DNA of 64,000 nucleotides from an uncultured Microbulbifer sp. (GTDB lineage: Bacteria; Pseudomonadota; Gammaproteobacteria; Pseudomonadales; Cellvibrionaceae), in assembly GCF_947498635.1 (NCBI RefSeq), contig NZ_CANMKV010000021.1, forward strand, positions 1-64,000, read 5' to 3'. Position 1 is the first letter of the stretch; every line of letters starts with the position of its first letter. The notes under the pieces are model-generated. The model did not search any database. It had not been told where the DNA came from and worked only from the letters and a program-made list of their open reading frames with translations. Below, piece by piece: positions 36,776 to 53,376 of this stretch. The position numbers and the translations under genes were made by a program.

Positions 36776-36816
36776 CACCGCCACCTCTAAAAAACACCAT
36801 CCGCTGGCCAATTAAA

Positions 36817-37218: not shown

Positions 37219-37652
37219 TAGATTTCCTCCCCAGCCAAATCTAAATTCTGTGAAAACAATTCCTGTATCCTTTGCTGTCGTACATTATTGTTTATTTGAG
37301 AAGCTGCCTGCTCGACTACTTGCCCAAATCGCCTGCGCCCAGGATAAATAACAGTCCTGAACATCTGTTTATTTTCATAAGTCACCCACACAACACTACC
37401 CCAGCGTGCCGAAGGTCTTTCATGAACAGTAAGGTTATAATCGAAATCTGTCAGATTTGAGGAGATGTACAGAGAGAGTGCGCGCGCAAATTCCTGACCT
37501 ATACCACTCACCGTATTATCAATGATCAACCCTGTAAGAATTGAATCTTCACCATCACCAGAATCCAGGGTCTGAGAAACCGTGAAAGAAGACATGAAAC
37601 ATAGAGAAAGTACAAGGCACCTCCCCCAAAGAGAAAAATATTTTGATTTCAT
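37218..37652 (-). CDS. csgE: Curli production/transport component CsgE
   Basis: A 144-residue periplasmic adaptor that caps CsgG and selects substrates. A signal peptide (~residues 1-27, ending near FTVSQ) precedes LIIDNTVSGIGQEFARALS, NLTVHERPSARWGSVVWV and the C-terminal VYPGRRRFGQVVEQAASQI, typical of CsgE. It starts one base after the csgD stop, so translation is probably coupled. Confidence 0.94.
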   Translation of the reverse strand: MKSKYFSLWGRCLVLSLCFMSSFTVSQTLDSGDGEDSILTGLIIDNTVSGIGQEFARALSLYISSNLTDFDYNLTVHERPSARWGSVVWVTYENKQMFRTVIYPGRRRFGQVVEQAASQINNNVRQQRIQELFSQNLDLAGEEI

Positions 37653-37653
37653 C

Positions 37654-38337
37654 TTACAAATTCTGACTCGCCCAACTACTTGCTTCCAAGCGATTTTTAC
37701 AGCCTATCTTTCTATAAATTTTATATAGATGACTTTTCACCGTGTGTTCACTGACGCAGAGTACACTAGCAATATCTGCATTAGTCCGACACTCACAGAT
37801 AAGTTCTAATATCTGCCGCTCCCTCTGTGTGAGGCTTGCGGTTGTATCCATCCATCTTTTGGGGCGTCTGTGCTGCCGAAGAAAATTATGCAAAACATCT
37901 CTAGGAAACCAATATTCCCCACAAAATATCCTGCCTAATCTCTCCATAATCACTTTCGCATCACTCTTCGAGGGCATCAGCCCTAGCACCTTTTCCCAAT
38001 GCAATACAAAATCAAATTCACTTGTATCGTCTACGTTTAGTAAAATGACACTGGGAGCATCAATTGCAGCATGAATATCCCGTAAAAGTTGATCAAGTTC
38101 TAACTTAGAGAGATCTGCGCAATCGAGTAAAAGATAATCAGCAACCAAATCCTCAAAAGAAACTGAGGGAAGGCGCTGAACAATAGAGCACTTGGTTTGA
38201 AATTCCGTTTCAATATGACCTGCAAAAATCGAAGTTTGCAAGTTGATTGAGGATGTTAAGAAAGCTACAGAAGGCCCCTTAAGAGTACTATCTGCCGCAA
38301 CAATTTTTAAGCGTGCATAGTCCTTATGCAAATTCAT
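37654..38337 (-). CDS. csgD: LuxR/CsgD-family transcriptional regulator
   Basis: A 227-residue regulator with an N-terminal receiver-like domain and a C-terminal LuxR-type HTH: LTQRERQILELICECRTNADIASVLCVSEHTVKSHLYKIYRKIG (residues ~168-212). It lacks a clear phosphoacceptor context, as CsgD does; it is probably not a classical response regulator. Position at the head of csgEFG supports control of the curli genes. In E. coli CsgD activates csgBA and extracellular matrix genes. ATG 38337 has GGGGGAA upstream. Confidence 0.88.
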   Translation of the reverse strand: MNLHKDYARLKIVAADSTLKGPSVAFLTSSINLQTSIFAGHIETEFQTKCSIVQRLPSVSFEDLVADYLLLDCADLSKLELDQLLRDIHAAIDAPSVILLNVDDTSEFDFVLHWEKVLGLMPSKSDAKVIMERLGRIFCGEYWFPRDVLHNFLRQHRRPKRWMDTTASLTQRERQILELICECRTNADIASVLCVSEHTVKSHLYKIYRKIGCKNRLEASSWASQNL

Positions 38338-39033
38338 CTGGGTTCCCCCAACATACGATCCTTTTTGATTCTACCTGATGACGGCTTCTTACTTTTTTAT
38401 TCTTTTCATCCTGCGGTATCGTTGCTGAGAACTAAATCTATTCGATCAACCCTCATACTGCAACAGGTAGTGATACAGATACCAAAAATTCAATCTTAAG
38501 TGTGCCAGTAATCCTTGCAAATGTTACTTTCTCATACAAAGGTATCGCTTTTAACTTGACCTGGAACAATTGTTAGCATCCTTTCGTATAGATTTCAAAG
38601 TAACGCAAAATCACCTAGAACAACAATAAATTCGCACTAGTCCGCAAACTTAATTGATATATATCGAGTAAAACCGTATGTTAACTCAGCTCAAATAACG
38701 CACACCGACCGAGTAAACACCACCATCTGTCAATTTAAAAAGATTCGGAAAGCAATTTAGTCGAGTCCTCTCAAATAAAGAAATTAATAGCGCTCGGAAA
38801 AGCAATATCGCTTTGATTAAAAACTTATTCACCTATGATTTTCTAGTACAGCGTAAGTCCAATCGAACTTACCCATGAAATATCAACATGCCCAAATAGT
38901 AATCAGGCGCTTGCTGATTTATGCTTCCATACTGGTACTCTCTAATCATTTATCACAGCCTCAACTTGAGAATACAGTACAAGATAGGCTTTCTAATAAG
39001 CAAAAATTCGCCTTAGCCGCAAAGGTTCAAGTC
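38338..39033. other. Divergent AT-rich control region between csgD and aidB, 696 bp
   Basis: No gene seen. The open frame 38875-39033 upstream of the chosen aidB start is judged non-coding or at most an N-terminal extension. As for curli loci elsewhere, a large regulatory region before csgD is expected; I could not assign individual sites. Confidence 0.5.
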
Positions 39034-40692
39034 ATGAGTGATCATTTACACCCTTCAACACATACAGCTACTCACATAGTCAGTAACCAAGTCTCTCCTC
39101 TCTGTGGACACAACCTATATGCCGGTGACCAAGCCTTAATTGATAATACGCATCTCAATGGTGGGCACTGGGCGGAAAATGACTTACAGCGTTACGGTGA
39201 AGTCTGCGGAAGACCAGAAATGATTGAGCGGGGTTATGCTGCGAATGAGTTTAAGCCAATATTTGAAAGTCATGATCGTATCGGTAATCGCATTGACTTA
39301 GTACGCTATCACCCCTCGTATCACCAGCTTATGCAGCTCGCACTATCAGAAGGGCTCCACAGCTCTCCCTGGACCACTCCTCGTCCCGGGGCCAATGTAA
39401 CCCGCGCTGCGAAAAACTATCTTCATTGCCAGCTAGAGGCGGGGCACAGTTGTCCCGTTACGATGACCTTTGCCTCAGTACCCTCAATTAAGTTAAATCA
39501 GGGAATTGCTGAAGAGTGGATACCCAAGATTCTTAACCGGGGATATGATGGCAGCAATCGCCCATATTTTGAAAAGTCCTCCCTGACCATTGGTATGGGT
39601 ATGACCGAAAAGCAGGGCGGCTCAGATGTTCGCTCAAATACAAGCACCGCATTATATACAGGTGGTGAGAGCTATGAATTGCTTGGTCATAAATGGTTTA
39701 TGTCAGCCCCAATGTGTGATGGCTTCCTCGTATTAGCCCAAGCGCCAGGAGGGCTCTCATGTTTCCTGGTGCCCCGCTGGCGGCCTGATGGAAGCAAAAA
39801 TGCGCTAGAAATTCAAAGACTTAAGATAAAGGCTGGTAATGTATCCAATGCCTCTTCTGAAGTGGAGATGCGAGGTGCTTTAGGTTGGTTATTGGGTGAA
39901 GAGGGGCGCGGCGTAAACGCGATCATCAAGATGGTCGCCCTCACACGCTTTGATTGTATGGTTGGCTCATCAGGTGGGCAGCGCCAAGCAGTGGTGCAGG
40001 CTATGTATCACACCTCTCAGAGGAAAGCCTTTGGTCAGAAACTGATTGACCAACCTTTAATGAGGAATGTATTGGGCGACCTACAACTGGAAGTTGAGGG
40101 CTCAATCGCTCTAACAATGCGTATGGCACGAGCCATGGATCAAGAGGATCAGGAGCACGAACAGATGCTATTACGTCTGGGTGCTGCCGTAGGTAAATAT
40201 TGGATCTGTAAACGCAGCCCCCATCATGCCTATGAAGCAATGGAGTGCTTGGGAGGTAATGGGGTTATTGAAAACTTTATCACCGCCCGCCTCTACCGCG
40301 ATGCACCAATTAATGCTATCTGGGAGGGGTCAGGTAACATTCAGGCTCTAGACGTGCTGCGAGCGATTACTAAGACGCCCAGTGTCGTCAACCATTGGTT
40401 GGATGAAATGGCATCGAGTGTCGGCGTAGATTCTCGATTTGATAAAGCAATAAATTTACTGAAAAATGAACTTGCAGACCTGGATCAATTTGAATATCGG
40501 GCACGTCATATAATCGACCAAATGGCGATTACGATGCAAACCCATCTCCTTCTTCAGGCTGGCAATGAAGCCGTAAGTAATGCTTTTATTCAATCTAGAT
40601 TGGAAAGTAAGGGGGCACACAGTACCGGCACTCTTCCTAGAAACATTGATATAGAAACACTACTGAAACGCGGGGATCCACTTTCTTTATAA
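39034..40692 (+). CDS. aidB: AidB-like acyl-CoA dehydrogenase family protein
   Basis: A 552-residue flavoprotein closely matching E. coli AidB (541) block by block: ITMTFAS (here VTMTFASVP), IGMGMTEKQGGSDVRSNT, LLGHKWFMSAPMCDGFLVLAQ, GGLSCFLVPRW, RFDCMVGSSGG, EAMECLGGNGVIEN and INAIWEGSGNIQALDVLRAI. AidB is induced by alkylating agents and binds DNA and FAD; its true reaction is unsettled. ATG 39034 is chosen because homology begins there (HIVSNQVSPLCGHNLY) and AAAGG lies eight bases upstream. The upstream in-frame ATG (38875) would add 53 residues foreign to AidB. A terminator follows. Confidence 0.9.
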   Translation: MSDHLHPSTHTATHIVSNQVSPLCGHNLYAGDQALIDNTHLNGGHWAENDLQRYGEVCGRPEMIERGYAANEFKPIFESHDRIGNRIDLVRYHPSYHQLMQLALSEGLHSSPWTTPRPGANVTRAAKNYLHCQLEAGHSCPVTMTFASVPSIKLNQGIAEEWIPKILNRGYDGSNRPYFEKSSLTIGMGMTEKQGGSDVRSNTSTALYTGGESYELLGHKWFMSAPMCDGFLVLAQAPGGLSCFLVPRWRPDGSKNALEIQRLKIKAGNVSNASSEVEMRGALGWLLGEEGRGVNAIIKMVALTRFDCMVGSSGGQRQAVVQAMYHTSQRKAFGQKLIDQPLMRNVLGDLQLEVEGSIALTMRMARAMDQEDQEHEQMLLRLGAAVGKYWICKRSPHHAYEAMECLGGNGVIENFITARLYRDAPINAIWEGSGNIQALDVLRAITKTPSVVNHWLDEMASSVGVDSRFDKAINLLKNELADLDQFEYRARHIIDQMAITMQTHLLLQAGNEAVSNAFIQSRLESKGAHSTGTLPRNIDIETLLKRGDPLSL

Positions 40693-40772: not shown

Positions 40773-43358
40773 CTAAAAGAAACTATAGCGAAAACCAAAT
40801 TGTCCACGCACTCCATAATATTCTAACTGCTTGGGCCTATTTTCATTACCAATATAATATGTTAGAGGTTCGTTAGTCAGGTTGAGAGCTTCTACAAAGA
40901 CAACCAGACTGTCACTCAATGTATAATTTGCACTCATCTCCAGACTGGTGTAGGCCCCATAGTATTGATCTCCATTTTTACTGGCTCCATGCTCCTCAAT
41001 ATACTCACCCTTATGATTTTGAGCCAAGCGTATGGAGAAAGCACCGTCGTCATAGTAGATAGAGAAATTATGTAACAAATCTGCTTGGCGGGAAATCGGC
41101 ACAGATTCATCACGTCCTGGGATATGCATTTCTGACTCCATCAAGGTGATATTTGCCGATACCCCAATATTTGAAAGAAATCCAGGCAGAAAATCCAACC
41201 TACGCACCAAGTTAAACTCCAAACCTCTCAGCCATGCATCGCCCCCATTTTCCGGGCTGTAGATATCAACTCCGGAAACCCCGTTATACTCGCCCTCTTT
41301 AACATCTTTAAAAATTGGATCGGTGATATCCTTATAGAAAACTCCAGTAGATAACACTCCGAATTCATTGAAATAGTATTCATACATCATATCCAGATTC
41401 CAAGAGTAAGTGGGATCAAGATCTGGATTACCACCTATAAATTCATTATCGTGTTCGGCGTAGTAACCTCCTGGATTCAGGTCACCAAAATCCGGCCTGG
41501 CAAATGTTCGGGTAACAGCAAACCGGATGTTACTATCTTCCGTAAGCGCATACTTTAGATGTACCGATGGCAGAATGGATAAATACTCTTTCTGGCCATT
41601 AAAAGGCACCAGGTAACCATTGTCAGATTCATCGGTGATAAACACCTGGCTATCCACCTCAGTTTGTGTCTGAGTCAGCCGCAACCCAGCTACAAAAGTC
41701 GCTCTCTCTGAAAAATCGTAAGTTCCCATACCATAAGCAGCCAGGTGACTTTCAGTTAGCTCAAAATTGCGTCCAAGAGCACCGCCATTTTCCACCAAAG
41801 CAGATTCTTCTGATACTAAAATAAATTTATCTCGATTTTCGTTCCAAAATTTTTCCAACTGCGACATTGAAGCCGATTGTGAGAACTGTGAGGCGTAATT
41901 AACATCCAGTTCAGATAAGAAATAACTTCTACCAGGCTGGTCAGACAATGTGAAATCAGCAAGAACCGGAGCAGAGCCGTAGTTCACCTCATCCCAGGCG
42001 TAAAATTCATCGGAAAATTCTGACACTCGCTCCTTATCCCGATATTTCATTCCGAACTTTAATTCCAACTCACTGGAAAGCTCCGAAGTAAAGTCAAAAG
42101 AAACAACTACTTTATCTTTTTCGTTGACATACACTTTATAAAGTTCAACCCAGGATAAATTGGACTGAGCCGGGTCCATCACAAAATGATCGGGAAGATG
42201 AGTCGGTATATTTTCTGCTGGATCATAGCCACCATCAATCTGGTTATAGGCCAGTCCATCCTCAGCCAAGCCAATATAACCCACATTCGCTTGGTCAAAG
42301 CGCATTACAAAATAAGAGTGATCTTCTTTATTAGGTGTATTCCCGTAGCGGAACTCATTATCATAACTGGCTAAACTCCAATTCAGCTGGTTATCAGCTC
42401 CTATAAAGCTTTCCCCACCAACTTCGAAGCCCTGCATACGAGTAATCAGCGTATTGTGTATGTGTTGAAGCTCCATTCTATCCTTATCAAACCTCAGCCT
42501 ATGCTTATAATGGATTTCTTCATCCTCAAGTGTTCCATATAAACCACGTGCAAAAAGTTTGCCTCCATCGTCAAACCGGTATTCAGTAGCAATATTTAAG
42601 CCAAGGGTATCCCTTGTCCCAGTGTAATCTCGTAATTCCAGGCGATATATTCCCACACCTTTACGGCGGGGCTCATAATTATCTGTTGCCCAGTCCCTGC
42701 TCCACCCGGTCACATTAGCAAGAAATCCCCACTTACCTTCCTCGCTTCTATCTCCATATAGAATACTCATGGATTTAATATCACCATCCGCTTTATCCGC
42801 ATAGCCACCGGAGAGGGATAAATCCAGAGTGCGCTCTTCAGGCGCAGTGCGGGTGACAAAGTTGACATTACCTCCAATAGAGTCTCCTTCCTGATCGGCA
42901 GTGAGCGCCTTGGAAACTTCGATACGCTCAATCAATTCCGATGGGAAGAAATCAAAAGCCGTAGCCCTGCTGGTCGTTTCCTCTTCTGCAGATGGCAATC
43001 GGTGGCCATTGAGGCTGGAGGAGCTCCACTGGGATGGGAGACCGCGAACAGCTACAAAACGTCCCTCGCCCTGGTCACGTTCAATAGAAACACCTGAAAC
43101 TCGTTGAACTGCCTCTGCAGCGTTACGATCGGGCAGCTTGCCAATACCATCTGCTGATACCACACTGACAATACGGTTAGATTCCCTCTGTATCTCCAGT
43201 GAATGCAACTCAGTATCAAACATGTGGCCTAGCACCACCACTTCTTCTATGCCGTAATCATCCAGAGCTCCCTGCTCACTACTTTCTTGAGCAAACACGT
43301 AACTACCCTGCCCAATTAGCAAAGCGATCGCTGCAGGCAATAATTTGACTCGAATCAT
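40773..43358 (-). CDS. TonB-dependent outer-membrane receptor (TIGR01782-like)
   Basis: An 861-residue outer-membrane importer. The signal peptide is at residues 1-23 (ends SYVFAQ). The TonB box is probably in EEVVVLG, then the plug domain: IGKLPDRNAAEAVQRVSGVSIERD, FVAVRGLPSQWSSSSLNGHRLPS and GDSIGGNVNFVTR. The barrel ends in the terminal aromatic signature FGFRYSFF. The plug resembles the large TIGR01782 group usually linked to organic substrates rather than siderophores. ATG 43358 is preceded by GGAG. The gene is divergent from the phosphonate operon and carries the same operator palindrome 80 bp upstream, so I infer uptake of a phosphonate or phosphonate-bearing molecule. Confidence 0.92.
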   Translation of the reverse strand: MIRVKLLPAAIALLIGQGSYVFAQESSEQGALDDYGIEEVVVLGHMFDTELHSLEIQRESNRIVSVVSADGIGKLPDRNAAEAVQRVSGVSIERDQGEGRFVAVRGLPSQWSSSSLNGHRLPSAEEETTSRATAFDFFPSELIERIEVSKALTADQEGDSIGGNVNFVTRTAPEERTLDLSLSGGYADKADGDIKSMSILYGDRSEEGKWGFLANVTGWSRDWATDNYEPRRKGVGIYRLELRDYTGTRDTLGLNIATEYRFDDGGKLFARGLYGTLEDEEIHYKHRLRFDKDRMELQHIHNTLITRMQGFEVGGESFIGADNQLNWSLASYDNEFRYGNTPNKEDHSYFVMRFDQANVGYIGLAEDGLAYNQIDGGYDPAENIPTHLPDHFVMDPAQSNLSWVELYKVYVNEKDKVVVSFDFTSELSSELELKFGMKYRDKERVSEFSDEFYAWDEVNYGSAPVLADFTLSDQPGRSYFLSELDVNYASQFSQSASMSQLEKFWNENRDKFILVSEESALVENGGALGRNFELTESHLAAYGMGTYDFSERATFVAGLRLTQTQTEVDSQVFITDESDNGYLVPFNGQKEYLSILPSVHLKYALTEDSNIRFAVTRTFARPDFGDLNPGGYYAEHDNEFIGGNPDLDPTYSWNLDMMYEYYFNEFGVLSTGVFYKDITDPIFKDVKEGEYNGVSGVDIYSPENGGDAWLRGLEFNLVRRLDFLPGFLSNIGVSANITLMESEMHIPGRDESVPISRQADLLHNFSIYYDDGAFSIRLAQNHKGEYIEEHGASKNGDQYYGAYTSLEMSANYTLSDSLVVFVEALNLTNEPLTYYIGNENRPKQLEYYGVRGQFGFRYSFF

Positions 43359-43437
43359 TCTCCATCCCCTTATCAAATAAAATATGAAGGGCAAACTGTT
43401 ACCGAAGTAAATTTAACGAGTTTGACCGCACCACAAA

Positions 43438-43451
43438 CTGGACTAGACCAG
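43438..43451. promoter_or_regulatory. Phosphonate-regulon operator 1 (before the TonB receptor)
   Basis: CTGGACTAGACCAG, a 14-bp dyad with one central mismatch, 80 bp upstream of the receptor start. The same sequence is repeated at 43614 and, nearly, at 48507. It resembles the known PhnF-type operator TGGTATAGACCA of GntR/UTRA regulators. Confidence 0.7.
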
Positions 43452-43612
43452 AATGCTAGTGTGCAGGCATGACGTTTGTATAACAGAAGCATGAATATTT
43501 TCACGCCCCCACAGCACGATATATCTTTAGTGAAATCACTTAGTACAGCAGACAAACATTTCTGAATTTAAGAAAGATACGGTCACAAAAGTTTAATCGA
43601 TAACCTTTAGAA

Positions 43613-43628
43613 TCTGGACTAGACCAGA
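43613..43628. promoter_or_regulatory. Phosphonate-regulon operator 2 (before the transporter operon)
   Basis: TCTGGACTAGACCAGA, identical in its core to operator 1. It ends 18 bases before the ATG of the MFS-like gene, a position suited to repression. Confidence 0.7.
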
Positions 43629-43646
43629 ATATGATTACTGAACAGT

Positions 43647-44972
43647 ATGGAAAATATCAGCAATAGAAAGGCACCCAATTACAGCAAAGATTTTATCAGC
43701 GAGCAGCTTCTACTGCTCTTTTCTGGAATCGCTGCCTTTTCTACTTACTTCTGCATGTATGCTTTTCGAAAGCCCTTTGCAGCCGCTTCCTATTCTGATA
43801 TTCCAGGCTGGGAGTTTATTCTCGACTTCAAAACCGCGCTGATTATTTCCCAACTACTAGGCTATACATTTTCAAAAGTTATCGGGATTAAGGTCGTCTC
43901 AGAGTTGCGTCCATTACAGCGAGGCCGGTTACTTCTAGCCCTGGTCCTTGCCAGTCACTTGGCCCTGGTTGCATTCGCAATAACTCCTGCTCCCTATAAT
44001 GTGGCCATGCTTTTTTTAAATGGCCTTCCCCTGGGAATGGTCTGGGGGTTGGTGTTCAGTTACCTGGAAGGCCGTCGCCTTACTGAAGCGCTAGGCGCTA
44101 TTTTATGTGTTAGCCTAATCGTCTCTTCAGGAGCCGTAAAAGCGGTAGCTGCTTATCTTCTGCTGGAATGGAAAATTCCAGAACTCTGGATGCCTGCAGC
44201 GGCTGGATTACTATTCTTACCTGGCCTGCTGGTATCTACACTTGCACTCAGTAGAACCCCACAACCTAGCCAAGCCGACATTAGTGCACGCAAAAAAAGA
44301 ACACCTATGACTGATGAGATGCGCAACCGTTTTCTCAATGAAACGCATTTTGGTCTGCTGGCCTTAATATTGACCTATGTATTTCTAACCGCATTTCGCG
44401 ACTTCACCGATAATTTTGCTGCTGAACTCTGGCAAGCTCTGGGATATGGTGAAACACCTCATATTTTCCTCACCAGTAGTCTACTTGTTGCACTGGTGGT
44501 ACTTGGCTCCCTGGCTCTACTTATTTTTGTACGAAATAACTATCGTGCATTGCAGCTAAATCAGTTATTTGTAGCGATTGGGGGAGCTACTTGCATTACA
44601 GCAACGCTGGTGTTCGAGACGGGCTCTATAACCGGCGCCACCTGGATGATCGCTATAAATGTTGGACTCTATATCGGTTATGTTCCGTTTAACTGCTTAT
44701 TATTTGAACGTCTAGTCGCCTGTACCAAAAGTCTTGGCAATGCCGGATTCGTTATTTATCTGGCAGATAGTTCAGGCTATATCGGCAGTATTGGAGTCAT
44801 GCTGTATAAAACATTCGCACAGCCAAATCTAAACTGGTTACAGTTTACCCAGCAGTTTTCCTACGCCACCGGTTTTGCGTGCATTCTGCTAATGCTGTTC
44901 TCACTTATCTCCTTCCGCCGCCTGCGCCGTAACCATTGTCCACGGTCAGAGCTAGTTACTTCTCCAGTGTAA
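43647..44972 (+). CDS. MFS-like 12-helix membrane transporter of a phosphonate operon (DUF5690-type)
   Basis: A 441-residue polytopic inner-membrane protein with about twelve hydrophobic segments and a short polar linker in the middle (residues ~205-230, RKKRTPMTDEMRNRF). It opens with CMYAFRKPFAAASYSD after the first helix; this YAFRKPF motif is seen in organophosphate-antiporter-like and DUF5690 proteins. It is the first gene after operator 2 and is followed 19 nt later by the FAD enzyme, so it is probably the inner-membrane step for the compound imported by the adjacent TonB receptor. The substrate is inferred from context only. Confidence 0.8.
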   Translation: MENISNRKAPNYSKDFISEQLLLLFSGIAAFSTYFCMYAFRKPFAAASYSDIPGWEFILDFKTALIISQLLGYTFSKVIGIKVVSELRPLQRGRLLLALVLASHLALVAFAITPAPYNVAMLFLNGLPLGMVWGLVFSYLEGRRLTEALGAILCVSLIVSSGAVKAVAAYLLLEWKIPELWMPAAAGLLFLPGLLVSTLALSRTPQPSQADISARKKRTPMTDEMRNRFLNETHFGLLALILTYVFLTAFRDFTDNFAAELWQALGYGETPHIFLTSSLLVALVVLGSLALLIFVRNNYRALQLNQLFVAIGGATCITATLVFETGSITGATWMIAINVGLYIGYVPFNCLLFERLVACTKSLGNAGFVIYLADSSGYIGSIGVMLYKTFAQPNLNWLQFTQQFSYATGFACILLMLFSLISFRRLRRNHCPRSELVTSPV

Positions 44973-44991
44973 AAAGGGTTATAAGCAAGAT

Positions 44992-46176
44992 ATGAAATTC
45001 GATATCGCCATCGTCGGTGCCGGAGTGCTTGGTAGCTTTGCCGCTTACCATGCACTCAAGTCCGGAAAAAAGGTATTGCTCATCGATGCCAGTACTAAAT
45101 CTCACGGCGCAACGGTACGGAATTTTGGGCAAATAGTGCCATCGGGTATGAATCTGAACTTATGGCGTAACCTGGGGCGGCGATCACTAGAGCTTTATGG
45201 CGAGCTGACATCATTAATGCCAGATGCACTTAAGCAACAAGGATCTCTCTATGTAGCTTCTTGTGCAGAAGAGACAAGTATCCTTGAGGAAATGCACGAG
45301 ATTAATTGTGAAACGGACTACACCTCCAAGCTTCTTACACCCACACAGTGCCGAAAACGTATTGCCCCCCTGGCCCAGGGTTATTGTCACGGTGGTCTCC
45401 TCTACCCACAGGAAATGAGTTCAGAAAGTACTCTAATGATGAAATATTTCTGGAAACACCTGGATGATGAGGCCAACCTCCACTTTAAAAAAGCCACTCC
45501 GGTAATTGCCGTAGAAGAAGTTCATAGCGGTATTGGGGTTCGCTGCTCAACTGGAGAAATTCATCTCTCAGAGCGCGCACTGATTTGTTGTGGCCACCAA
45601 CTTAGCCACTTGTTTCCACATTTATTGCAAACGAAAAAAATGCAACTTAGTAAGTTACAAATGTTGCGTACTCAGCCCTTCGAAAAGATCAAGGTTCCAG
45701 GAAATTTGTTAACAGCCCTGACTATACGCCGTTATGAGGCCTTCAAAAGCTGTCCCAACTATAAAAATTTACCGAAACCTCAGATCGATCCAGACTATAA
45801 AAAACTTGGAATCCACCTGCTATTTCGTCAGTCTGCCGATGGTAGCCTTATCATCGGTGACTCCCATGAGTATTTCTCTGCCCTAGACTCGGGCACGTTG
45901 GACTATGAGATCCGACAAGAAATCAACACACTGATAATGGCTGAAGCCAAACGTATCCTCAACCTTCCCCATTACAATATAGCCAGGGCCTGGAATGGCT
46001 ATTACAGCCAGGAAAATAATCGAGGTATCTTCCTCAAATCGGCTGCTGAGCATATCCATTTAGTGACCGGTATTGGCGGAAAAGGCATGACGACTGGACC
46101 CGCATTAATGGAGCGGGTAGTGAAAAATATTTTTGAAGAAAATCCTCTTGAAGAGTGCCTTATCGATGAATATTGA
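44992..46176 (+). CDS. FAD-dependent amine oxidase of phosphonate clusters (TIGR03364 type)
   Basis: A 394-residue DAO-like flavoprotein. The FAD-binding motif is IAIVGAGVLGSFAAYHAL (residues 5-22) with VLLIDAS closing the Rossmann unit. The conserved GATVRNFGQIVPSG follows, and near the C-terminus GIGGKGMTTGPAL. This family recurs beside phnX; recent work on such enzymes (PbfC/PbfD) showed oxidation of 2-aminoethylphosphonate or its N-alkyl derivatives to phosphonoacetaldehyde. With no PhnW transaminase or PhnY in view, this enzyme most likely supplies PhnX. It overlaps the next gene by 11 bases. Confidence 0.85.
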   Translation: MKFDIAIVGAGVLGSFAAYHALKSGKKVLLIDASTKSHGATVRNFGQIVPSGMNLNLWRNLGRRSLELYGELTSLMPDALKQQGSLYVASCAEETSILEEMHEINCETDYTSKLLTPTQCRKRIAPLAQGYCHGGLLYPQEMSSESTLMMKYFWKHLDDEANLHFKKATPVIAVEEVHSGIGVRCSTGEIHLSERALICCGHQLSHLFPHLLQTKKMQLSKLQMLRTQPFEKIKVPGNLLTALTIRRYEAFKSCPNYKNLPKPQIDPDYKKLGIHLLFRQSADGSLIIGDSHEYFSALDSGTLDYEIRQEINTLIMAEAKRILNLPHYNIARAWNGYYSQENNRGIFLKSAAEHIHLVTGIGGKGMTTGPALMERVVKNIFEENPLEECLIDEY

Positions 46177-46720
46177 TGTTGTGGATGAAATAAGTCAGCT
46201 TTTTTTACAGTACGGTCATTTAACACTCGGGGAAAACTGTACACAACTACAACATGCTATCCAGTGTGCAACCCTGGCAGAACACACTGATAGCACTGAC
46301 GAATTGATTGTGGCTGCATTTCTACACGATATCGGTCATCTCTACGCCATTAAGGAAAACTTACCCGGTATAGATTCCGAGGGCTATTGCAAACATGAAC
46401 TTATAGGCGCAGCTCTGCTCGAAAAGTGGGGATTTCCCTCTAGTGTCACCATACCCATCGCCTTGCATGTTCAGGCGAAGAGATTCCTTAAGAATACGGA
46501 TAGTCATTACGAAGCGCAGCTATCCAGAGCCAGCCGAAACACTCTGGTAAAGCAAGGCGAAGGCATGAGCAATCAAGAGCAAATTGGTTTTCTACAAAAT
46601 CCCTTCGCCAGAGACGCCCTGCTCCTCCGCAAATGGGATGATGCCGGAAAGATTCCAGGAAGAGATATGGCCACTTTTCATCATTGGCTAAAGGTCTGTG
46701 CAAAGGTACGCAATAAATAA
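46166..46720 (+). CDS. HD-domain protein of phosphonate operons (PhnZ-like, TIGR03276 type)
   Basis: A 184-residue HD-domain protein. Metal ligands expected from PhnZ, a mixed-valent diiron oxygenase that splits 1-hydroxy-2-aminoethylphosphonate, are all present: H30 (LQHAIQCATLAE), H54-D55 (FLHDIGHL), H77 (KHELIG), H101 (ALHVQAKRFL, with K105) and an Asp in KWDDAGK (~158). By eye, the PhnZ lid tyrosine (Y24) aligns with a threonine (T20), while the following G-E is kept. The ATG at 46166 lies inside the end of the FAD gene. No phnY hydroxylase is seen, so its substrate may be an already hydroxylated phosphonate. Confidence 0.83.
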   Translation: MNIDVVDEISQLFLQYGHLTLGENCTQLQHAIQCATLAEHTDSTDELIVAAFLHDIGHLYAIKENLPGIDSEGYCKHELIGAALLEKWGFPSSVTIPIALHVQAKRFLKNTDSHYEAQLSRASRNTLVKQGEGMSNQEQIGFLQNPFARDALLLRKWDDAGKIPGRDMATFHHWLKVCAKVRNK

Positions 46721-46764
46721 TCTGTCGTTTCAATTCCATATCCATCACCTAAAAGAGAGAACAC

Positions 46765-47574
46765 ATGGAATCCCTACAATTAAAAGCAGTTATCCTCGAC
46801 TGGGCCGGAACACTAGTCGACTTTGGCTCTCGCGCTCCTCTGCAAGCATTTATACAGGTTTTTTCTGATGCGAGGATTTCTGTCAATGAGGCGCAAACCC
46901 GCATTCCAATGGGTACCGAGAAGAAAGAGCATATTCGCCGGATGTTACAACAGGAAGCCATTCAAGCTGCCTGGCAAGAAGAGTACGGGCGCTCATCCCA
47001 GGAATCCGATATCGACGATTTGTATCGTCAGTTGACCCCAATACAAATTCAGGAAATTGATAAACACAGCCAAATAGTGCCAGGGGCAGACAAATTATTT
47101 GTTCGTTTGCGTGAGCGTAATTTACGTATCGGCAGTACCACCGGTTATAGCCGCATGATGATTGAGGGAATGCTGGCAAACGCTCAACAACAGGGCCTGA
47201 GGCCCGACTGTGTAGTTGCTGCCGATGAAGCTGTAGGCGCGAGACCCGGACCGGCCGCCGCATTGAAGAACGTTATTGAAATGGAAATCCCCTCCGTCAG
47301 CCTATGTGTCAAGGTAGATGACACCGCTGCAGGCATTCACGAAGGGCGAAATGCCGGTATGTGGACCGTTGCAGTGGTGCTTTCCGGAAACGCCTCAGGA
47401 TTATCCCAGGAAAGCTGGCAGATGCTCTCAGAGGAAGAGAAAAATAGTCACCGTACTAGCGCCTATCAAAAACTGGAGAATAGTGGCGCCCACTACTTGA
47501 TAGACGATATCAGTAAGCTTGAACCTGTACTGGTCGATATCAATCGTCGGCTGGCCCTTGGACAACGCCCCTGA
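46765..47574 (+). CDS. phnX: Phosphonoacetaldehyde hydrolase
   Basis: A HAD-superfamily phosphonatase that cleaves phosphonoacetaldehyde to acetaldehyde and phosphate. At 269 residues the key residues fall at the positions of the Bacillus cereus enzyme: nucleophile D12 in LDWAGT and Schiff-base K53 in the cap motif MGTEKKEHIRRM. HAD motif II is GSTTGYS and motif IV is VKVDDTAAGIHEGRNAGMWTV. The motif III region reads GARPGPAAALKN where most PhnX have GRPxPWM, a mild divergence. ATG 46765 has GAGAG upstream. It lies 44 nt after the HD gene. Confidence 0.95.
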   Translation: MESLQLKAVILDWAGTLVDFGSRAPLQAFIQVFSDARISVNEAQTRIPMGTEKKEHIRRMLQQEAIQAAWQEEYGRSSQESDIDDLYRQLTPIQIQEIDKHSQIVPGADKLFVRLRERNLRIGSTTGYSRMMIEGMLANAQQQGLRPDCVVAADEAVGARPGPAAALKNVIEMEIPSVSLCVKVDDTAAGIHEGRNAGMWTVAVVLSGNASGLSQESWQMLSEEEKNSHRTSAYQKLENSGAHYLIDDISKLEPVLVDINRRLALGQRP

Positions 47575-47654
47575 TAGGCTATCAACCTGCAACAATAATT
47601 CTTCGGTAGCCCAGGCTAAAGACCAAGTTTAAGAACAAACCCAAGAGAAGTACT

Positions 47655-48356
47655 GTGTCCTCCAGTTACGATGATATCAAGTCCTATGTTCAATTGTTGA
47701 TCACTAATAGTCGCCTGGCCGTCAACCAGAAATTACCCGCCGAGCGTGAACTGGCAGAGCAACTGCAAGTCACGCGTATTACCTTGCGCGACGGATTAAA
47801 CCGCCTTGAGGGAGAGGGGCTGATCTACCGTCAAAATCGGCGTGGCTGGTTTGTTGCCCCAAATCGCTTCGTAATGAATCCAGCCCAAAAGGTCAATTTT
47901 AATTCCATGGCTTGGCAACAGGGGTTCAGCCCCACCACCAATGTGCTGGGATTTCGCAAACTGATCGTACGCCGCGCTATTTACTCGGTCTTTAGCTCCA
48001 GTAAAAGCACTAAGTATTTTGAGATGCGAAGAGTACGCTACCTAGACCAGCGGGCAGTTATGGTAGAAGAAAGCTATCTTCCCGCAGAGCGCTTTTCTGG
48101 ATTATCTGACTCCGATTTATCGGGATCGGTTACAGAAATATTAAAAGATCGCTACGCGGTAACTATTACTCATGAGCGCTGTACCATTCAGGTTGCCAAC
48201 TTGGAATTACAGTGTGCAGAGCCCCTTGGCATTCCCGCTGGCGCCCTAAGCCTGAAAATAATACGACTCCGCTTTGATTCCAGTGAGCATTTGGTCGATT
48301 ACAATATTGAATACTGGCTACCTCATGCCATAGAAATGGAAGTCGCCACCCAGTAA
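47655..48356 (+). CDS. GntR-family regulator with UTRA domain (PhnF/PhnR-like)
   Basis: A 233-residue regulator. The N-terminal winged HTH is LPAERELAEQLQVTRITLRDGLNRLEGEGLIYRQNRRGWFV (residues ~23-65). A UTRA ligand domain follows (FEMRRVRYLDQRAVMVEESYLPAERF, LSLKIIRLRFDSSEHLVDYNIEYWLPHAIEMEV). The UTRA/HutC group includes PhnF and regulators of aminoethylphosphonate genes. As the only regulator in the island it is the best candidate to bind the CTGGnCTAGnCCAG sites. The start is GTG 47655 after AGAGAAG. No operator copy was found directly before its own start. Confidence 0.9.
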   Translation: MSSSYDDIKSYVQLLITNSRLAVNQKLPAERELAEQLQVTRITLRDGLNRLEGEGLIYRQNRRGWFVAPNRFVMNPAQKVNFNSMAWQQGFSPTTNVLGFRKLIVRRAIYSVFSSSKSTKYFEMRRVRYLDQRAVMVEESYLPAERFSGLSDSDLSGSVTEILKDRYAVTITHERCTIQVANLELQCAEPLGIPAGALSLKIIRLRFDSSEHLVDYNIEYWLPHAIEMEVATQ

Positions 48357-48504
48357 TTCCCTCCCTTACGGTCTTGCTACTTTTTTCTGGCTTTTACCCA
48401 AGGGGGTCGGTTAGTTGTTCGCTTTTAATTAACCGTCTTTTCTTTGCAGTATCTCAGTCAAAACCCCTTCATTGGCATTTAACAACCATTGTCTATCCTA
48501 ATAA

Positions 48505-48522
48505 ATCTGGTCTAGGCCAGAT
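48505..48522. promoter_or_regulatory. Phosphonate-regulon operator 3 (before the secreted phosphatase-hemopexin gene)
   Basis: ATCTGGTCTAGGCCAGAT, an 18-bp palindrome with one mismatched pair, sharing CTGGnCTAGnCCAG with operators 1 and 2. It ends 26 bases before the ATG of the secreted enzyme. Confidence 0.65.
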
Positions 48523-48548
48523 ACAATTTAAAATACAGGATATTCGAT

Positions 48549-50309
48549 ATGAAGAGGCTCATCTCCTGCCTATTGTGGATCATGCTGGTTTCCAGTACCC
48601 AGTACGTTTTTGCCCAGAACAATAAGAAGGTACTTCTTATTGGCGTTGATGGGCTACAGTACGAAAAGCTAAAGGCCTTAGACACCCCCAATTATGACCG
48701 ATTAATTTTACACAAAGCCTATACCGGTGGCATCAACGGTACCCCCAACCAGCAAGATACTAAAAGTGGACCTGGCTGGTCCACTATTCTTACTGGAGTT
48801 TGGGTGGACAAGCACAAAGTTGCCGCCAATGACTCTGGCCAAGCAAATGCTATATTTCCAAGTTTATTCAAGCGTATTAAAGAAGCGGACAATAACTTTT
48901 GGGTAGGCAGCCTATCGCACTGGAGCCCTATCAATACCAACTTCTTTACAGCTGACCTGGCGCAGGCCGATCTGGTTTTAAGTGGCCTTTCCGATGCGGA
49001 TGTCACCGCTCGCGGAGTGCAGGAGATTTCTTCTGGCAAAGTAGATTTCCTATTCCTGCACTTGGATGATCCCGATGGTGCCGGTCATAGCTCTTGCTTT
49101 GGCGATCGCTATAACGAGAGCATTCACACAAGCGATACTCAGCTGGGTATGCTGCTAGATGCAGTCGAGTCACGTATTGCTCGCGGGGAGGAATGGTTGG
49201 TACTCGTAACCACAGATCACGGCCGTGATTCCCGTGGCTGCGGACACGGATCACAAACGACCAGTGAGAAAACTATTTTTATCGGCAGTAACCTGCCATT
49301 GAATGCCGAGCACAGTGAATATGTTGAGGATATCCACAATGAAGATTTTGATGGGATTTATGGCCATGCCGCACAAACTTCGATTGCACCAACGGTGCTC
49401 CGTTTTATGGATATCGACCTAAAAACGACCTGGAAGCTGGATGGTAATCCACTGATTGGTAGCCCTGGCATACGTAAATTGATATCGACCAATAATACAA
49501 CGATTCAATGGTATTCAACGGATAGCGGTCCAGTTGAGATTTACCAAAATGATCAGCTTATTGATATAACGGATGCGAGTTTACAGAGCTGGACCGATCG
49601 CACAAAAGCCCAGGGAATCCTCGATTATGTATTTGTGTATAACAATACCCCGGTCGCTCTGCGAAAATCCGCTCTGGACATTATCGCCGGTCTCGATTGG
49701 AGCGGTTCGCGTGCTTACTATTTCCGAAGCGACAATCAATATGTACGCTATAACAAAATCCTGGGCAGGGCTTCTAGCGACTATCCACGCACAACGGATA
49801 ATAACACTTGGCCTGGTTTGGGAGACTATGCCAACCTTATTGTTGCCGCATTTAAAACCAGTAGCGAAAAAGGTTATTTTTTCTTAAATGATGGGCGCTA
49901 TTTACGCTACGATCTCGATAAAGATCGCGTGGATTCCGGCTACCCAAAGTTGGTTGATAACAACAGCTGGCCGGGTATGGCCACCTACGCCAATAAAATT
50001 CGCGCAGCCCTGAAGTGGCCCAATAATAAAGTATATTTCTTTCTCAATGATGGGAATTATTTACGCTATGACTTGGAAGAAGATCAGCTTGACAGCGGTT
50101 ACCCTCAAGCTGTCAATGACAACACCTGGCCGGGACTCGGCGCCTATGCATCAGAGATTACTGCGGCCCACCAATGGAACTCTATTCGCGCTTATTTCTT
50201 CCTGAAAAATCAACGCTATATACGCTATTCCATCACCTCGGATCAGGCGTATAACGGATATCCACGAACAACCGACGATGACACCTGGCCGGGCCTGATG
50301 ACTCCCTGA
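48549..50309 (+). CDS. Secreted alkaline-phosphatase-superfamily hydrolase fused to a hemopexin propeller
   Basis: 586 residues. Signal peptide at 1-22 (ends QYVFAQ). The catalytic domain (~25-300) has alkaline-phosphatase-superfamily metal and nucleophile motifs: LLIGVDGLQ, SGPGWSTILTGVWVDKH (nucleophile Ser/Thr), HLDDPDGAGHSS, VTTDHGRDSRG and YGHAAQTSIAPTVL. After a spacer, four hemopexin-like blades follow (~390-586), each with a YYF/YFF-L-x-D-G/N-x-Y-x-R-Y core and a SGYP-x(6)-TWPGL end. Location outside the inner membrane is expected. With operator 3 upstream, it belongs to the phosphonate regulon; it may release phosphonates or phosphate from esters such as phosphonolipids. The exact reaction (phosphodiesterase, phosphonoacetate hydrolase or other) is unknown. 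Confidence 0.82.
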   Translation: MKRLISCLLWIMLVSSTQYVFAQNNKKVLLIGVDGLQYEKLKALDTPNYDRLILHKAYTGGINGTPNQQDTKSGPGWSTILTGVWVDKHKVAANDSGQANAIFPSLFKRIKEADNNFWVGSLSHWSPINTNFFTADLAQADLVLSGLSDADVTARGVQEISSGKVDFLFLHLDDPDGAGHSSCFGDRYNESIHTSDTQLGMLLDAVESRIARGEEWLVLVTTDHGRDSRGCGHGSQTTSEKTIFIGSNLPLNAEHSEYVEDIHNEDFDGIYGHAAQTSIAPTVLRFMDIDLKTTWKLDGNPLIGSPGIRKLISTNNTTIQWYSTDSGPVEIYQNDQLIDITDASLQSWTDRTKAQGILDYVFVYNNTPVALRKSALDIIAGLDWSGSRAYYFRSDNQYVRYNKILGRASSDYPRTTDNNTWPGLGDYANLIVAAFKTSSEKGYFFLNDGRYLRYDLDKDRVDSGYPKLVDNNSWPGMATYANKIRAALKWPNNKVYFFLNDGNYLRYDLEEDQLDSGYPQAVNDNTWPGLGAYASEITAAHQWNSIRAYFFLKNQRYIRYSITSDQAYNGYPRTTDDDTWPGLMTP

Positions 50310-50313
50310 CTGC

Positions 50314-51054
50314 CTACCAGGGCAAGCGGCTACCATCCCAAAAAAACAAATTGCCACTATCGGCCGGCGCCAGTTGTTCTACTACATCCACAATACGCCC
50401 GGCACTCAGTGCCGGGCTATAGAGTTTACCGGGTGCTAGATTCCCCTGAAAAGGTTTGGAGAGCACTGTATCTGTGGTTCCCGGATGGACTGCCACCACA
50501 CAACTACTTTCCAGTCGACGCCCCCATTCAATAGACAGGTTTTTTATCAACATATTGAGCGACGCCTTGCTGATACGGTAACTGTACCAGCCGCCCAACT
50601 CATTATCGCCGATACTACCGACCTTGGCAGATAGGGATACCCACAGCAGCGGCTGCTTGCGCAGCAACTTCCTATCCAGTGCCTGGGCCAGGTGCAAGTG
50701 AGTGAGCAAATTGATGCGTATGGATTGTACCAGCCAGTCATCTTCACACTGGGCCAGGGATTTTTCCGGACCACGGAACTCATCGTGTAACAGCCCACAG
50801 CAGTTGATTACCCAGTCGGGCGGAGAGGAAAATTCAGAGAGAAAGGCCTTGACCGATTGAATCGAGTGCTCGTCCGCAAGGGATACTGTCAGGTGCCGGC
50901 GCTCACCCGCGTGCCCCGGCACCCGATCCACCGCAGCGCGGCTCAACGTGAGCAGCGCTATATCGGGATAGCGCCGAACAATTTCGGCGCCTATTGCGCG
51001 GGCCAGGTCGCCTGACGCGCCAGCAAGTAATACCGTCCTTGGTTGATCAAACAT
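50314..51054 (-). CDS. Short-chain dehydrogenase/reductase
   Basis: A 246-residue SDR with the coenzyme motif VLLAGASGDLARAIGAEIV (residues ~7-25, a GASGxxA variant of TGxxxGxG), NCCGLLHD (NNAG-like), a catalytic Ser in VSLSAKVGSIGDN and YSYRISKASLN (YxxxK). The start is taken at ATG 51054 with GGAGG six bases upstream; the longer frame runs into the decarboxylase gene. It lies 31 nt after the decarboxylase on the same strand and is probably cotranscribed. The substrate is unknown. It is convergent with the hemopexin-fusion gene, 4 bp apart. Confidence 0.85.
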   Translation of the reverse strand: MFDQPRTVLLAGASGDLARAIGAEIVRRYPDIALLTLSRAAVDRVPGHAGERRHLTVSLADEHSIQSVKAFLSEFSSPPDWVINCCGLLHDEFRGPEKSLAQCEDDWLVQSIRINLLTHLHLAQALDRKLLRKQPLLWVSLSAKVGSIGDNELGGWYSYRISKASLNMLIKNLSIEWGRRLESSCVVAVHPGTTDTVLSKPFQGNLAPGKLYSPALSAGRIVDVVEQLAPADSGNLFFWDGSRLPW

Positions 51055-51085
51055 ACCGGCCTCCATGCCGGATAGCTCGTGGGGT

Positions 51086-53149
51086 CTATTTTGCCTTTTT
51101 GCCGCCGGATTTTTTACCTGTGGCTTCCAGGGTCCCAGGTACTTCCCTGACCACACGCAACATGGGTTCATCGGAGCGGAAAATCAGGCCGTGAATTTCC
51201 GTAGTATTCTGCCCCTGCAATAACTGTTGCAGGTACTGCACAATCTGCGCGGAAATCTCCTGACCAGGCACCAGTACAGGAATACCCGGTGGGTAGGGCA
51301 CAATCTCATCGGCGCTGGTGCGGCCGATCAGGTTCTGCGTCGCATCCACGCCGTTATCCATTAACGGAAGCTCTTCAGTCTCGGCAAAGTAGGCGTCTGC
51401 CGGCAGACAGGTAAAGCGGGTAAACTCCGGCAGTCGACGCGGAGTACCCACATGAATACGCTTATGGGTATTGCCCGCCAGTTGCTTGAGCGCATGAATC
51501 AGGCGCAACAATTTACTCTCGGTGCTGCCCAGAGTCACCAACACCGTGATGGTATTGTAGGTGGTCTTCTCCACCTGGATACCATACTGGTCGAACAGCT
51601 TGATCTGCATCTCATTACCCGAGTAGCCACTGCGGGAGATATCGATGGTCACCTTGGTGGGGTCCAAGCGAATATTGTCGCCGGCAAGTGGCTCGGCAAT
51701 CAGATCGTCACGGGTTAGGGCGCGGAATACACCGGTTTCATTCACTGCGCGGCGCAGAGTTTCCACCATCTGTAAGCACTGCTTAAGACGCCCATAACCC
51801 TCCATCGCCATTTGCTTTCGCGCCACATCGAGGCTGGCGATCATGGCGTATTGCGGGCTGGTGGAGGCGTGCATGTTCAGGTTTTCGCGGAAGCGGAACT
51901 CGTCAAAGTCCGGGTCCTGCACATGAATCATACTGGCCTGGGAAAACGCCGATAGCATCTTGTGGGTGCTCTGGGTTACATAGTCGGCGCCACACTCCAG
52001 CGCGGTGGGACGCAGCTCAGGGTGGAAGAAACCGTGGGCAAACCAGGCCTCATCAACCAGCACCTTAACGCCCCGCTCATGGGCGTAGTCGATGATGGGC
52101 TTCAGGTCGTAACGCAGGCCATCATAGGTGCAGGACGTGATGACCAGTAGACGCGCATCGCCGTGCTCATCCAGGGCCGCCTCGATATCGGAGCGCTTCA
52201 CCGGGCCATAGATACCGAATTCGGGGTGCAGTACCGACTTCAGGTAAACCGGCTCACAGCGATTCATCACTATCGCGTGGTGGACCGACTTGTGACAGGC
52301 CTGGTCGACAATAATCTTGCCACCACCGCCGAGGATCTGCTGAATCACTACCTTGTTAGCAGTGGAAGTGCCGTTGGTCAGGAAAAAAGTGTGGCGCGAA
52401 CCAAAGGCCTGGGCGGCCAGATCTTGTGCTTCCTGGATCACCGAGTGTGGTTCCAGCAGGCTGTCCAGTATCTGCACCGAGACAGACAAATCCGTATTGA
52501 AAACGTGTTCGCCCATAAAGCGGTAGAAATCCCCCACCCAGGGGCTATTGCGCAGGCTGTCCCCTCCGGAGTGGCCCGGTGTGTGCCAGGCATCGCGCGC
52601 GGAGAATACGTACTCTTTCAAAGTATCGGCGAAGGGAGTGGAGGCCCGGCGGGCGATAAATGCCTGCACCAGACGGAACATATGGTTGAAGTTGCCCTCA
52701 CGGCGGTCAAATAGTTCGTCGAAGCGCCTGCGCAGACTGGTCAGTGATTTGACGCCGCTTTTCCCTGCCAGTGGCGTACCACCGGCGACATCGCTTTGCG
52801 CCACCAGAAAAATATTGAGTTGAGAGCGAAGTGCATGAATCTGGTCAGCGAGCATATCCGCAGCTTCCAGGCCCTGGGCATCAGTACCCCCATCCACTAT
52901 AACGGCCTGTAGACGCCCCTCTTCCAGCGCCAGCTGTTCCGCATCTGCGGGGATCACCGCTTCAAAAACCAGGCCGAAGGGATTCTCATGCAAAGCTGCG
53001 GTGCTGTTCAGGGCGCTGACCCAGTCTCCCGCCAACTTGCTGTCTGCACTCACCAGCGCCACATGGCATTCCAGCTTCTGTGCGCTGTGTTTCAGGTTGC
53101 CCAATTCAGGCATCTTCATGTCCAAACCCATATTCTTATCCACCAGCAT
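51086..53149 (-). CDS. Orn/Lys/Arg decarboxylase, fold-type I, PLP-dependent
   Basis: A large basic-amino-acid decarboxylase of 687 residues making a diamine or agmatine. An N-terminal wing-like domain (~1-170) precedes the PLP core with WHTPGHSGGDSL, FFLTNGTSTANK, CHKSVHHA, VDEAWFAHGFF and the PLP lysine in TQSTHKMLSAFSQASMIH (about residue 397). The C-terminal domain is conserved (EIVPYPPGIPVLVPGQEI). Specificity among lysine, ornithine and arginine cannot be read by eye. Start choice is uncertain among several in-frame ATGs near 53149-53110. It is followed by the SDR. Confidence 0.9.
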   Translation of the reverse strand: MLVDKNMGLDMKMPELGNLKHSAQKLECHVALVSADSKLAGDWVSALNSTAALHENPFGLVFEAVIPADAEQLALEEGRLQAVIVDGGTDAQGLEAADMLADQIHALRSQLNIFLVAQSDVAGGTPLAGKSGVKSLTSLRRRFDELFDRREGNFNHMFRLVQAFIARRASTPFADTLKEYVFSARDAWHTPGHSGGDSLRNSPWVGDFYRFMGEHVFNTDLSVSVQILDSLLEPHSVIQEAQDLAAQAFGSRHTFFLTNGTSTANKVVIQQILGGGGKIIVDQACHKSVHHAIVMNRCEPVYLKSVLHPEFGIYGPVKRSDIEAALDEHGDARLLVITSCTYDGLRYDLKPIIDYAHERGVKVLVDEAWFAHGFFHPELRPTALECGADYVTQSTHKMLSAFSQASMIHVQDPDFDEFRFRENLNMHASTSPQYAMIASLDVARKQMAMEGYGRLKQCLQMVETLRRAVNETGVFRALTRDDLIAEPLAGDNIRLDPTKVTIDISRSGYSGNEMQIKLFDQYGIQVEKTTYNTITVLVTLGSTESKLLRLIHALKQLAGNTHKRIHVGTPRRLPEFTRFTCLPADAYFAETEELPLMDNGVDATQNLIGRTSADEIVPYPPGIPVLVPGQEISAQIVQYLQQLLQGQNTTEIHGLIFRSDEPMLRVVREVPGTLEATGKKSGGKKAK

Positions 53150-53376
53150 AGCCCGCAACTTATCGGGGGCCGCCGCTTTAATTATTCAACTATTTGATTT
53201 TATTAACTTTTATTTAGTCCCCCGACAATCGCGGAGGATCTGGAATTCTTGGGTGAAAAACCAGAGGGCAAATACTAATAGAGAGGGCATCGGAATTCCG
53301 CGACGACAGCGCTTTTGGCGATATTCGCCAAAAGCAAGCTGACCGACCAGATCTATTGCCAAGGAAGAGTGGAAAG

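Follow-up and report, generated by a model that had tools for sequence, protein, structure and literature searches.

A probable aminophosphonate utilization island with a TonB-dependent receptor and a DUF5690 permease in an uncultured Microbulbifer

We studied seven adjacent genes (40773-50309) in a stretch of 64,000 nucleotides from an uncultured Microbulbifer sp. (positions 1 to 64,000 of contig NZ_CANMKV010000021.1; we call this whole stretch the window). We propose that these genes form a patchily distributed island for the utilization of aminophosphonates, namely 2-aminoethylphosphonate (AEP), N-methyl-AEP, and probably their esters. The island would be governed by a PhnR-type regulator of the GntR/UTRA family with three operators, and it was probably acquired by horizontal transfer. 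We put the probability of this reading at roughly 70%. It builds on things that we observed directly: the identities of the genes, the set of operators, and a linkage that is conserved in other bacteria. A preliminary description of this DNA had proposed a complete alternative system in which phosphonates are trimmed outside the cell, imported, oxidized, and cleaved. This was right in outline and is partly supported: the receptor is indeed linked to the catabolic genes elsewhere, the use of an FAD enzyme in place of PhnW was already published, and what supports the secreted enzyme comes from lineages with other receptors.

In the pathway that we envision, a phosphonate signal would lead to the expression of three transcription units. 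Outside the cell, the secreted PF01663 enzyme, of the phosphodiesterase type, would trim esters of phosphonates, either the head groups of phosphonolipids or glycans decorated with phosphonate; the TonB-dependent receptor would carry the phosphonate across the outer membrane; and DUF5690, as a GlpT-like permease, would carry it across the inner membrane. A PbfD-type FAD oxidase would then form phosphonoacetaldehyde without PhnW, and PhnX would split this into acetaldehyde and phosphate. A large part of biogenic phosphonate is probably tied up in lipids and polymers, and the substrate of the island may be bulky (a lipid, glycan, or polymer).

Genes and operators of the island

All seven open reading frames (ORFs) lie where the preliminary description had placed them, and scans with Pfam and NCBIfam agree with the families that it gave. 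(Scores below are in bits, compared to the curated family cutoff for NCBIfam or the gathering score for Pfam.) They form three transcription units. The TonB-dependent outer-membrane receptor (TIGR01782, 491.8 vs. 310) is on the minus strand at 40773-43394, with the ATG at 43358 being a likelier start than the mechanically called TTG at 43394. A closely spaced series on the plus strand (43647-48356) comprises the DUF5690 permease, the FAD oxidase, the HD protein, PhnX, and the GntR regulator. The secreted enzyme (48549-50309, plus strand) has a separate upstream region of its own.

Each unit is preceded by an exact copy of the 14-base palindrome CTGGNCTAGNCCAG, starting at 43438, 43614, and 48507. 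The sites are CTGGACTAGACCAG at 43438-43451, upstream of the receptor; CTGGACTAGACCAG at 43614-43627, upstream of the permease-led series; and CTGGTCTAGGCCAG at 48507-48520, upstream of the secreted enzyme. These are the only exact copies in the 4.52 Mb assembly of the common operator that had been noticed in the window. Five places in the assembly match with one mismatch, all of them on other contigs, and the reversed pattern, as a control, is found at 1 place. If up to three mismatches are allowed, the window has 31 matches, compared to a mean of 26.2 in shuffled sequences. This does not exceed chance, and we therefore rely on close sites alone. The regulator (47655-48356, plus strand) presumably recognizes the three operators. 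By its context it would act like PhnR; we do not claim that it belongs to the PhnR family.

The cytoplasmic core is familiar. The FAD oxidoreductase (44992-46176, plus strand) is over the cutoff for TIGR03364, the PbfD family (336.6 vs. 285.1), and is predicted to yield phosphonoacetaldehyde from AEP or N-methyl-AEP. PhnX, or phosphonoacetaldehyde hydrolase (46765-47574, plus strand), passes the cutoff for TIGR01422 (318.1 vs. 220), and alignment to a solved PhnX confirms that the catalytic residues D12 and K53 are kept. Passages of PMC10590968 describe the same arrangement, in which a TIGR03364 FAD enzyme adjoins phnX, phnW is lacking, and AEP or N-methyl-AEP is oxidized to phosphonoacetaldehyde, so the core pathway is not new. 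Compared to those clusters, the receptor, DUF5690, and the secreted enzyme are additions of the window; the text passages of that paper that we consulted contain no occurrence of TonB.

The HD-domain protein (46133-46720, plus strand; an ATG at 46166 is a possible alternative start) was previously called PhnZ-like, and PhnZ and TmpB do account for its only four matches in PDB (E about 1e-23 to 1e-24). It keeps E27 of PhnZ. It probably acts on 1-hydroxylated aminophosphonates that are imported ready-made, as no PhnY partner was found.

PhnW, PhnY, an ABC importer, and C-P lyase had been listed as absent. In genome-wide profile searches, nothing was over the cutoff for PhnW (there were three weak matches), there were no matches to PhnJ, and none of four PhyH-family proteins was over a PhnY cutoff. 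For the importer, the claim was borne out for PhnD only: the sole match to PF12974 in the genome is the lytic transglycosylase MltF, and the search did not extend to ABC importers such as AepXVW, AepSTU, and PhnSTUV.

DUF5690 and its companions in other bacteria

What had been described as an MFS-like permease (43647-44972, plus strand) is, by its profile match, a member of a separate Pfam family, DUF5690 (PF18943; 496.8 vs. 25), and we predict that it is an aminophosphonate carrier. We found no paper that uses the name DUF5690 in the open-access literature (preprints left out), and the family's profile (our alignment A1) has no matches among PDB sequences. DUF5690 is over the cutoff in 5 of 293 genomes of the window's order, including the window's own.

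To see what accompanies DUF5690, we compared 80 named loci, the best of 571 confirmed when ranked by likeness to the window's gene; several of these are closely related to each other. Because ORF calling hides genes beneath longer spurious ORFs in GC-rich loci, tblastn matches were added, and the counts combine these with BLAST clusters. PhnX-family proteins are found in 56 of the loci, PbfD in 45, HD proteins in 31, PhnR-like regulators in 26, and PhnW in 13. A second aminophosphonate oxidase, similar to TIGR03329, is in 12 loci (the member in locus L063 scores 606, compared to a cutoff of 633). At least one of the listed aminophosphonate enzymes is present in 66 of the 80 loci, and at least two in 57. 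Three Arenibacter loci (L108, L112, and L118) instead encode PbfA, the (R)-1-hydroxy-2-aminoethylphosphonate ammonia-lyase. The one in L112 scores 726.5 vs. 525, and those of L108 and L118 are 94-95% identical to it. Adding these gives 69 of 80 loci with a gene for an aminophosphonate enzyme. (We dropped a looser count of 70, as all that speaks for L102 is an aminotransferase with 27% identity and a weak match to GntR.) When all ORFs in the loci were clustered without regard to names, the same families were again the most frequent companions.

The operator is shared as well. The 80 loci (1.37 Mb) contain 9 exact sites, compared to 0, 1, 0, 0, and 0 in five first-order shuffles. With three further loci from the window's order (L047-L049) included, the number of sites that are exact or have one mismatch comes to 29, of which 23 are upstream of an island-type gene at a distance of no more than 400 bp (the comparison with chance covers exact sites only). 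In ten gammaproteobacterial loci, the operator lies 4-44 bp ahead of the receptor's called start; it is exact in six of them and has one mismatch in four. Other sites are upstream of genes for PhnW, MFS, or HD proteins, and in L067 (Sphingomonas echinoides RIT-Gs-1) an exact site is 55 bp upstream of a phospholipase C (PLC) gene. The receptor, and in one case a PLC, are thus under the same operator in other genera.

A search of a plasmid collection gave four matches (H2 was left out). In the Parabacteroides and Bacteroides records, the series is simply DUF5690-phnX-phnW; on a Novosphingobium plasmid it is DUF5690, TIGR03364, phnX, and then a UTRA regulator. DUF5690 is the one carrier inside these series, and other transporters are annotated nearby. 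The records with DUF5690-phnX-phnW that are listed as plasmids (NZ_OY725756.1 and NZ_OY725933.1; L158 and L159) have housekeeping-like genes near this series (in L159, for example, one for glycine-tRNA ligase) and may therefore be pieces of chromosomes.

GlpT, one of the OPA (GlpT/UhpT) organophosphate antiporters, binds phosphate with the conserved basic residues R45, K80, and R269. In a weak profile-profile match, R41-K42 and K77 of DUF5690 align with R45-K46 and K80 of GlpT (helices 1 and 2). The DUF5690 relative in L108 matches TIGR00881 at 3.8e-5, far under the cutoff. (Our DUF5690 alignment A5 has sequences from 38 of the 80 loci and the window; L084, L102, and L135 were excluded for a stop codon in the matched stretch.) If DUF5690 does import AEP, then AepP of Pseudomonas putida, as described in passages of PMC8316502, is a precedent: it is a GlpT-like permease of the major-facilitator type that imports AEP as a single protein, which is the role that we would expect for DUF5690. 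The two differ in that AepP is 27.75% identical to GlpT, while DUF5690 is a separate Pfam family with only weak profile similarity.

We also note two features of these loci. The PbfD-type gene beside DUF5690 in L048 (10456-11103; genome G116) is a 215-amino-acid ORF that lacks the central part. In 10 DUF5690 loci there is a TPR protein that bears a sulfotransferase domain (PF13469; for instance L102:4671-6686).

The receptor, the secreted enzyme, and rival explanations

Linkage of the receptor and of the secreted enzyme to phnX in other genomes had been set beforehand as a check on the island, and the two genes fared differently. In 17 loci, a relative of the receptor (50-59% identical) is encoded no more than 7 kb from DUF5690. 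Thirteen of these are among the 80 named loci (50-58% identical), and all 13 contain PhnX; they are from Pseudoalteromonas (seven), Thalassotalea, Colwellia, two gammaproteobacterial metagenome assemblies, Novosphingobium, and Sphingobium. The others are L153 and L047-L049, which are three of four other DUF5690 loci that we examined in the window's order.

Two more searches for the receptor were made independently of DUF5690, with only two or three candidates scored in each genome. Across 369 genomes of the class, there was one strong relative besides the window's own, in genome G490, and it is linked. Among 299 genomes of the order of G490, a strong relative was found in two, G490 and G728; the contig of G728 ends about 1.3 kb from the start of the receptor, so linkage cannot be judged there. 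Eight TIGR03364 loci from the window's order, taken from 8 of the 12 other genomes over the cutoff, have neither a DUF5690 match nor a receptor match in the stretches compared. Distances between receptors and distances between permeases are correlated (Mantel r = 0.89, n = 18 sequences), part of which will reflect shared species history. Other lineages use other receptors: alphaproteobacterial DUF5690 loci have different TonB receptors (roughly 30% identical), seven DUF5690 loci have another receptor family (one was checked in Pfam), and those of Bacteroidota have SusC-SusD.

The secreted enzyme has a PF01663 domain (51.8 vs. 23), C-terminal hemopexin repeats, and a signal peptide that we identified by eye. 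Residues D34, S73, D176, H180, D223, H224, and H233 are invariant in all 13 sequences of our alignment A4, and we take the conserved Asp and His residues to be metal ligands. Since a phosphonate monoester chemically resembles a phosphodiester, such a locus would need an enzyme of the phosphodiesterase or phospholipase C type. The trimming of esters outside the cell by this enzyme is no more than plausible.

Both types of enzyme recur beside DUF5690. PF01663-type homologs are in 15 of the 80 loci, and in 11 of these 15 (from Muricauda- and Arenibacter-like Bacteroidota) the gene directly follows SusC-SusD; the one Bacteroidota enzyme that was checked in Pfam has PA14 where the window's has hemopexin. 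PLC homologs are also in 15 loci (13 from named Alphaproteobacteria, one from Alteromonas, and one unplaced), and the two that were checked, from L067 and L081, pass the cutoff for phosphocholine-specific PLC. One or the other enzyme is in 29 of the 80 loci, and in 25 loci it occurs together with both a receptor and an enzyme for aminophosphonates. As an illustration only, since the genomes were picked partly for having the enzyme nearby, PLC was found in 12 of 19 genomes, compared to 0.21 expected, and PF01663 in 14 of 18, compared to 1.1 expected. (The PLC estimate counted L073 and L125 as lacking it, and PLC was later found in both.) In several Bacteroidota loci, another protein is encoded directly 3' of the PF01663 enzyme (L107:18754-19584 and L112:18226-19479); the L107 copy has a weak match to metallo-beta-lactamase, and the L112 copy has no match in Pfam.

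Several observations weigh against our proposal. The regulator misses the cutoff for PhnR (TIGR03337, 211.7 vs. 296.75). The HD protein misses that for TIGR03276 (187.5 vs. 214.6), so it is a relative that we do not file as a member, and it has a threonine at the position of Y24 in PhnZ. DUF5690 resembles a GlpT/UhpT/UhpC profile only weakly (hhalign probability 30%, E = 5.5e-4), and R269 of GlpT, the arginine in helix 7, does not line up cleanly. Ten DUF5690 loci have no phosphonate genes (L079, L080, L085, L099, L106, L121, L122, L133, L135, and L137; five of these span at least 17 kb and the rest are stretches of 6.5-15.3 kb), an eleventh (L102) has only weak matches to such genes, and in L046, from the window's order, DUF5690 sits among housekeeping-like genes with no phosphonate genes. 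As for the secreted enzyme, not one of the 13 named loci that share the window's type of receptor has a PF01663 or PLC homolog in the stretch compared. In the 369 genomes of the class, two other proteins are related to its catalytic domain (in G446 and G438), and neither is beside phosphonate genes; a third match covers the hemopexin part only. Given these two relatives, which argue against it in Gammaproteobacteria, we dropped the idea that dedication to phosphonates is a general trait of this PF01663 family.

These last points fit another explanation, in which the island handles free, small aminophosphonates only. The receptor would do no more than help dilute AEP across the outer membrane, and the secreted enzyme, under the same regulator, would act as a general phosphodiesterase and provide phosphate or nucleosides. 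PF01663 proteins are also abundant in some genomes (for example, 31 to 44 in the four Arenibacter genomes), which is in its favor. Against it, a copy of the operator stands before the secreted enzyme, PF01663 or PLC enzymes are found in over a third of the DUF5690 loci, and the PLC of L067 is under the operator too. We consider this explanation unlikely, while it is the best of the alternatives.

The receptor could instead import iron, or another metal complex, for a di-iron HD oxygenase. Iron is what many TonB-dependent receptors import, a gene for an HD oxygenase-like protein lies in the island, and the receptor has weak matches to siderophore-receptor families as well. But five receptor-bearing loci (L064, L070, L072, L082, and L084) have no HD match, and the receptor is under the same operator as the phosphonate genes, which makes this quite improbable. 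That the genes at the two ends are mere passengers, joined by transfer events and with no single function, is more doubtful still: the island is patchy (DUF5690 is in none of 6 other genomes of the genus) and there are loci with the same receptor and without the secreted enzyme, but the receptor and the permease vary together across 18 loci from several genera, and each unit has one operator with no further exact copy in the genome.

Known systems and implications for DUF5690

Our preferred reading remains an island for aminophosphonates and probably their esters. Its logic would be that of polysaccharide utilization loci, which combine a secreted hydrolase, a TonB receptor, an inner permease, and cytoplasmic catabolism; here the nutrient would be an organophosphonate. 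No carbohydrate-active families were found in the Pfam and NCBIfam scans of the seven proteins.

The clear published precedent for this logic at the cell envelope, by analogy, is the PusCD loci, or phosphate utilization systems, of Flavobacterium, which the authors describe in passages of PMC8115612 as co-localized with phosphodiesterases and phosphonate-degrading enzymes. PusCD are SusC-SusD pairs that are induced by low phosphate, whereas the window has a single TIGR01782 receptor and a PhnR-type operator; none of the ten proteins that we scanned in and beside the island belongs to the SusD family. According to part of a review (PMC10574752), phosphonates presumably reach the periplasm via porins such as PhoE. 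No TonB receptor is mentioned in the passages of PMC5082522 and PMC8154272, and AEP work is merely cited in those of PMC11892949.

The genes around the island are of other kinds. On the minus strand at 35927-38337 are the curli secretion genes CsgG, CsgF, and CsgE and a LuxR-type regulator. An AidB/isovaleryl-CoA-dehydrogenase-like protein (PF18158; NF008594, 508 bits, under the cutoff of 545) adjoins the island at 38875-40692. Past the other end (50314-53158, minus strand), an ORF for a short-chain dehydrogenase overlaps one for a lysine/ornithine decarboxylase-like pyridoxal-phosphate enzyme.

More tentatively, and with somewhat less than even odds, DUF5690 may mark an undescribed type of locus for utilizing esterified phosphonates in Alpha- and Gammaproteobacteria and in Bacteroidota. 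Outer-membrane TonB receptors, either single or of the SusC-SusD kind, would work with repeatedly recruited secreted enzymes (phosphodiesterases or phospholipases C) to strip and import the head groups of phosphonolipids or phosphonoglycans for PbfD or PhnW and PhnX, with DUF5690 as the common inner-membrane carrier. Relative to the literature that we searched, three things are new: the assignment of DUF5690 to phosphonate uptake; a PhnR-type operator ahead of TonB receptors and secreted-type esterases across genera; and a hemopexin-bearing phosphodiesterase within a PhnR-type regulon. If the proposal is true, then DUF5690, a family with no known function, would turn out to carry phosphonates in a wide range of bacteria, and there would be testable candidate genes for two further steps of phosphonate utilization, passage through the outer membrane and ester hydrolysis.

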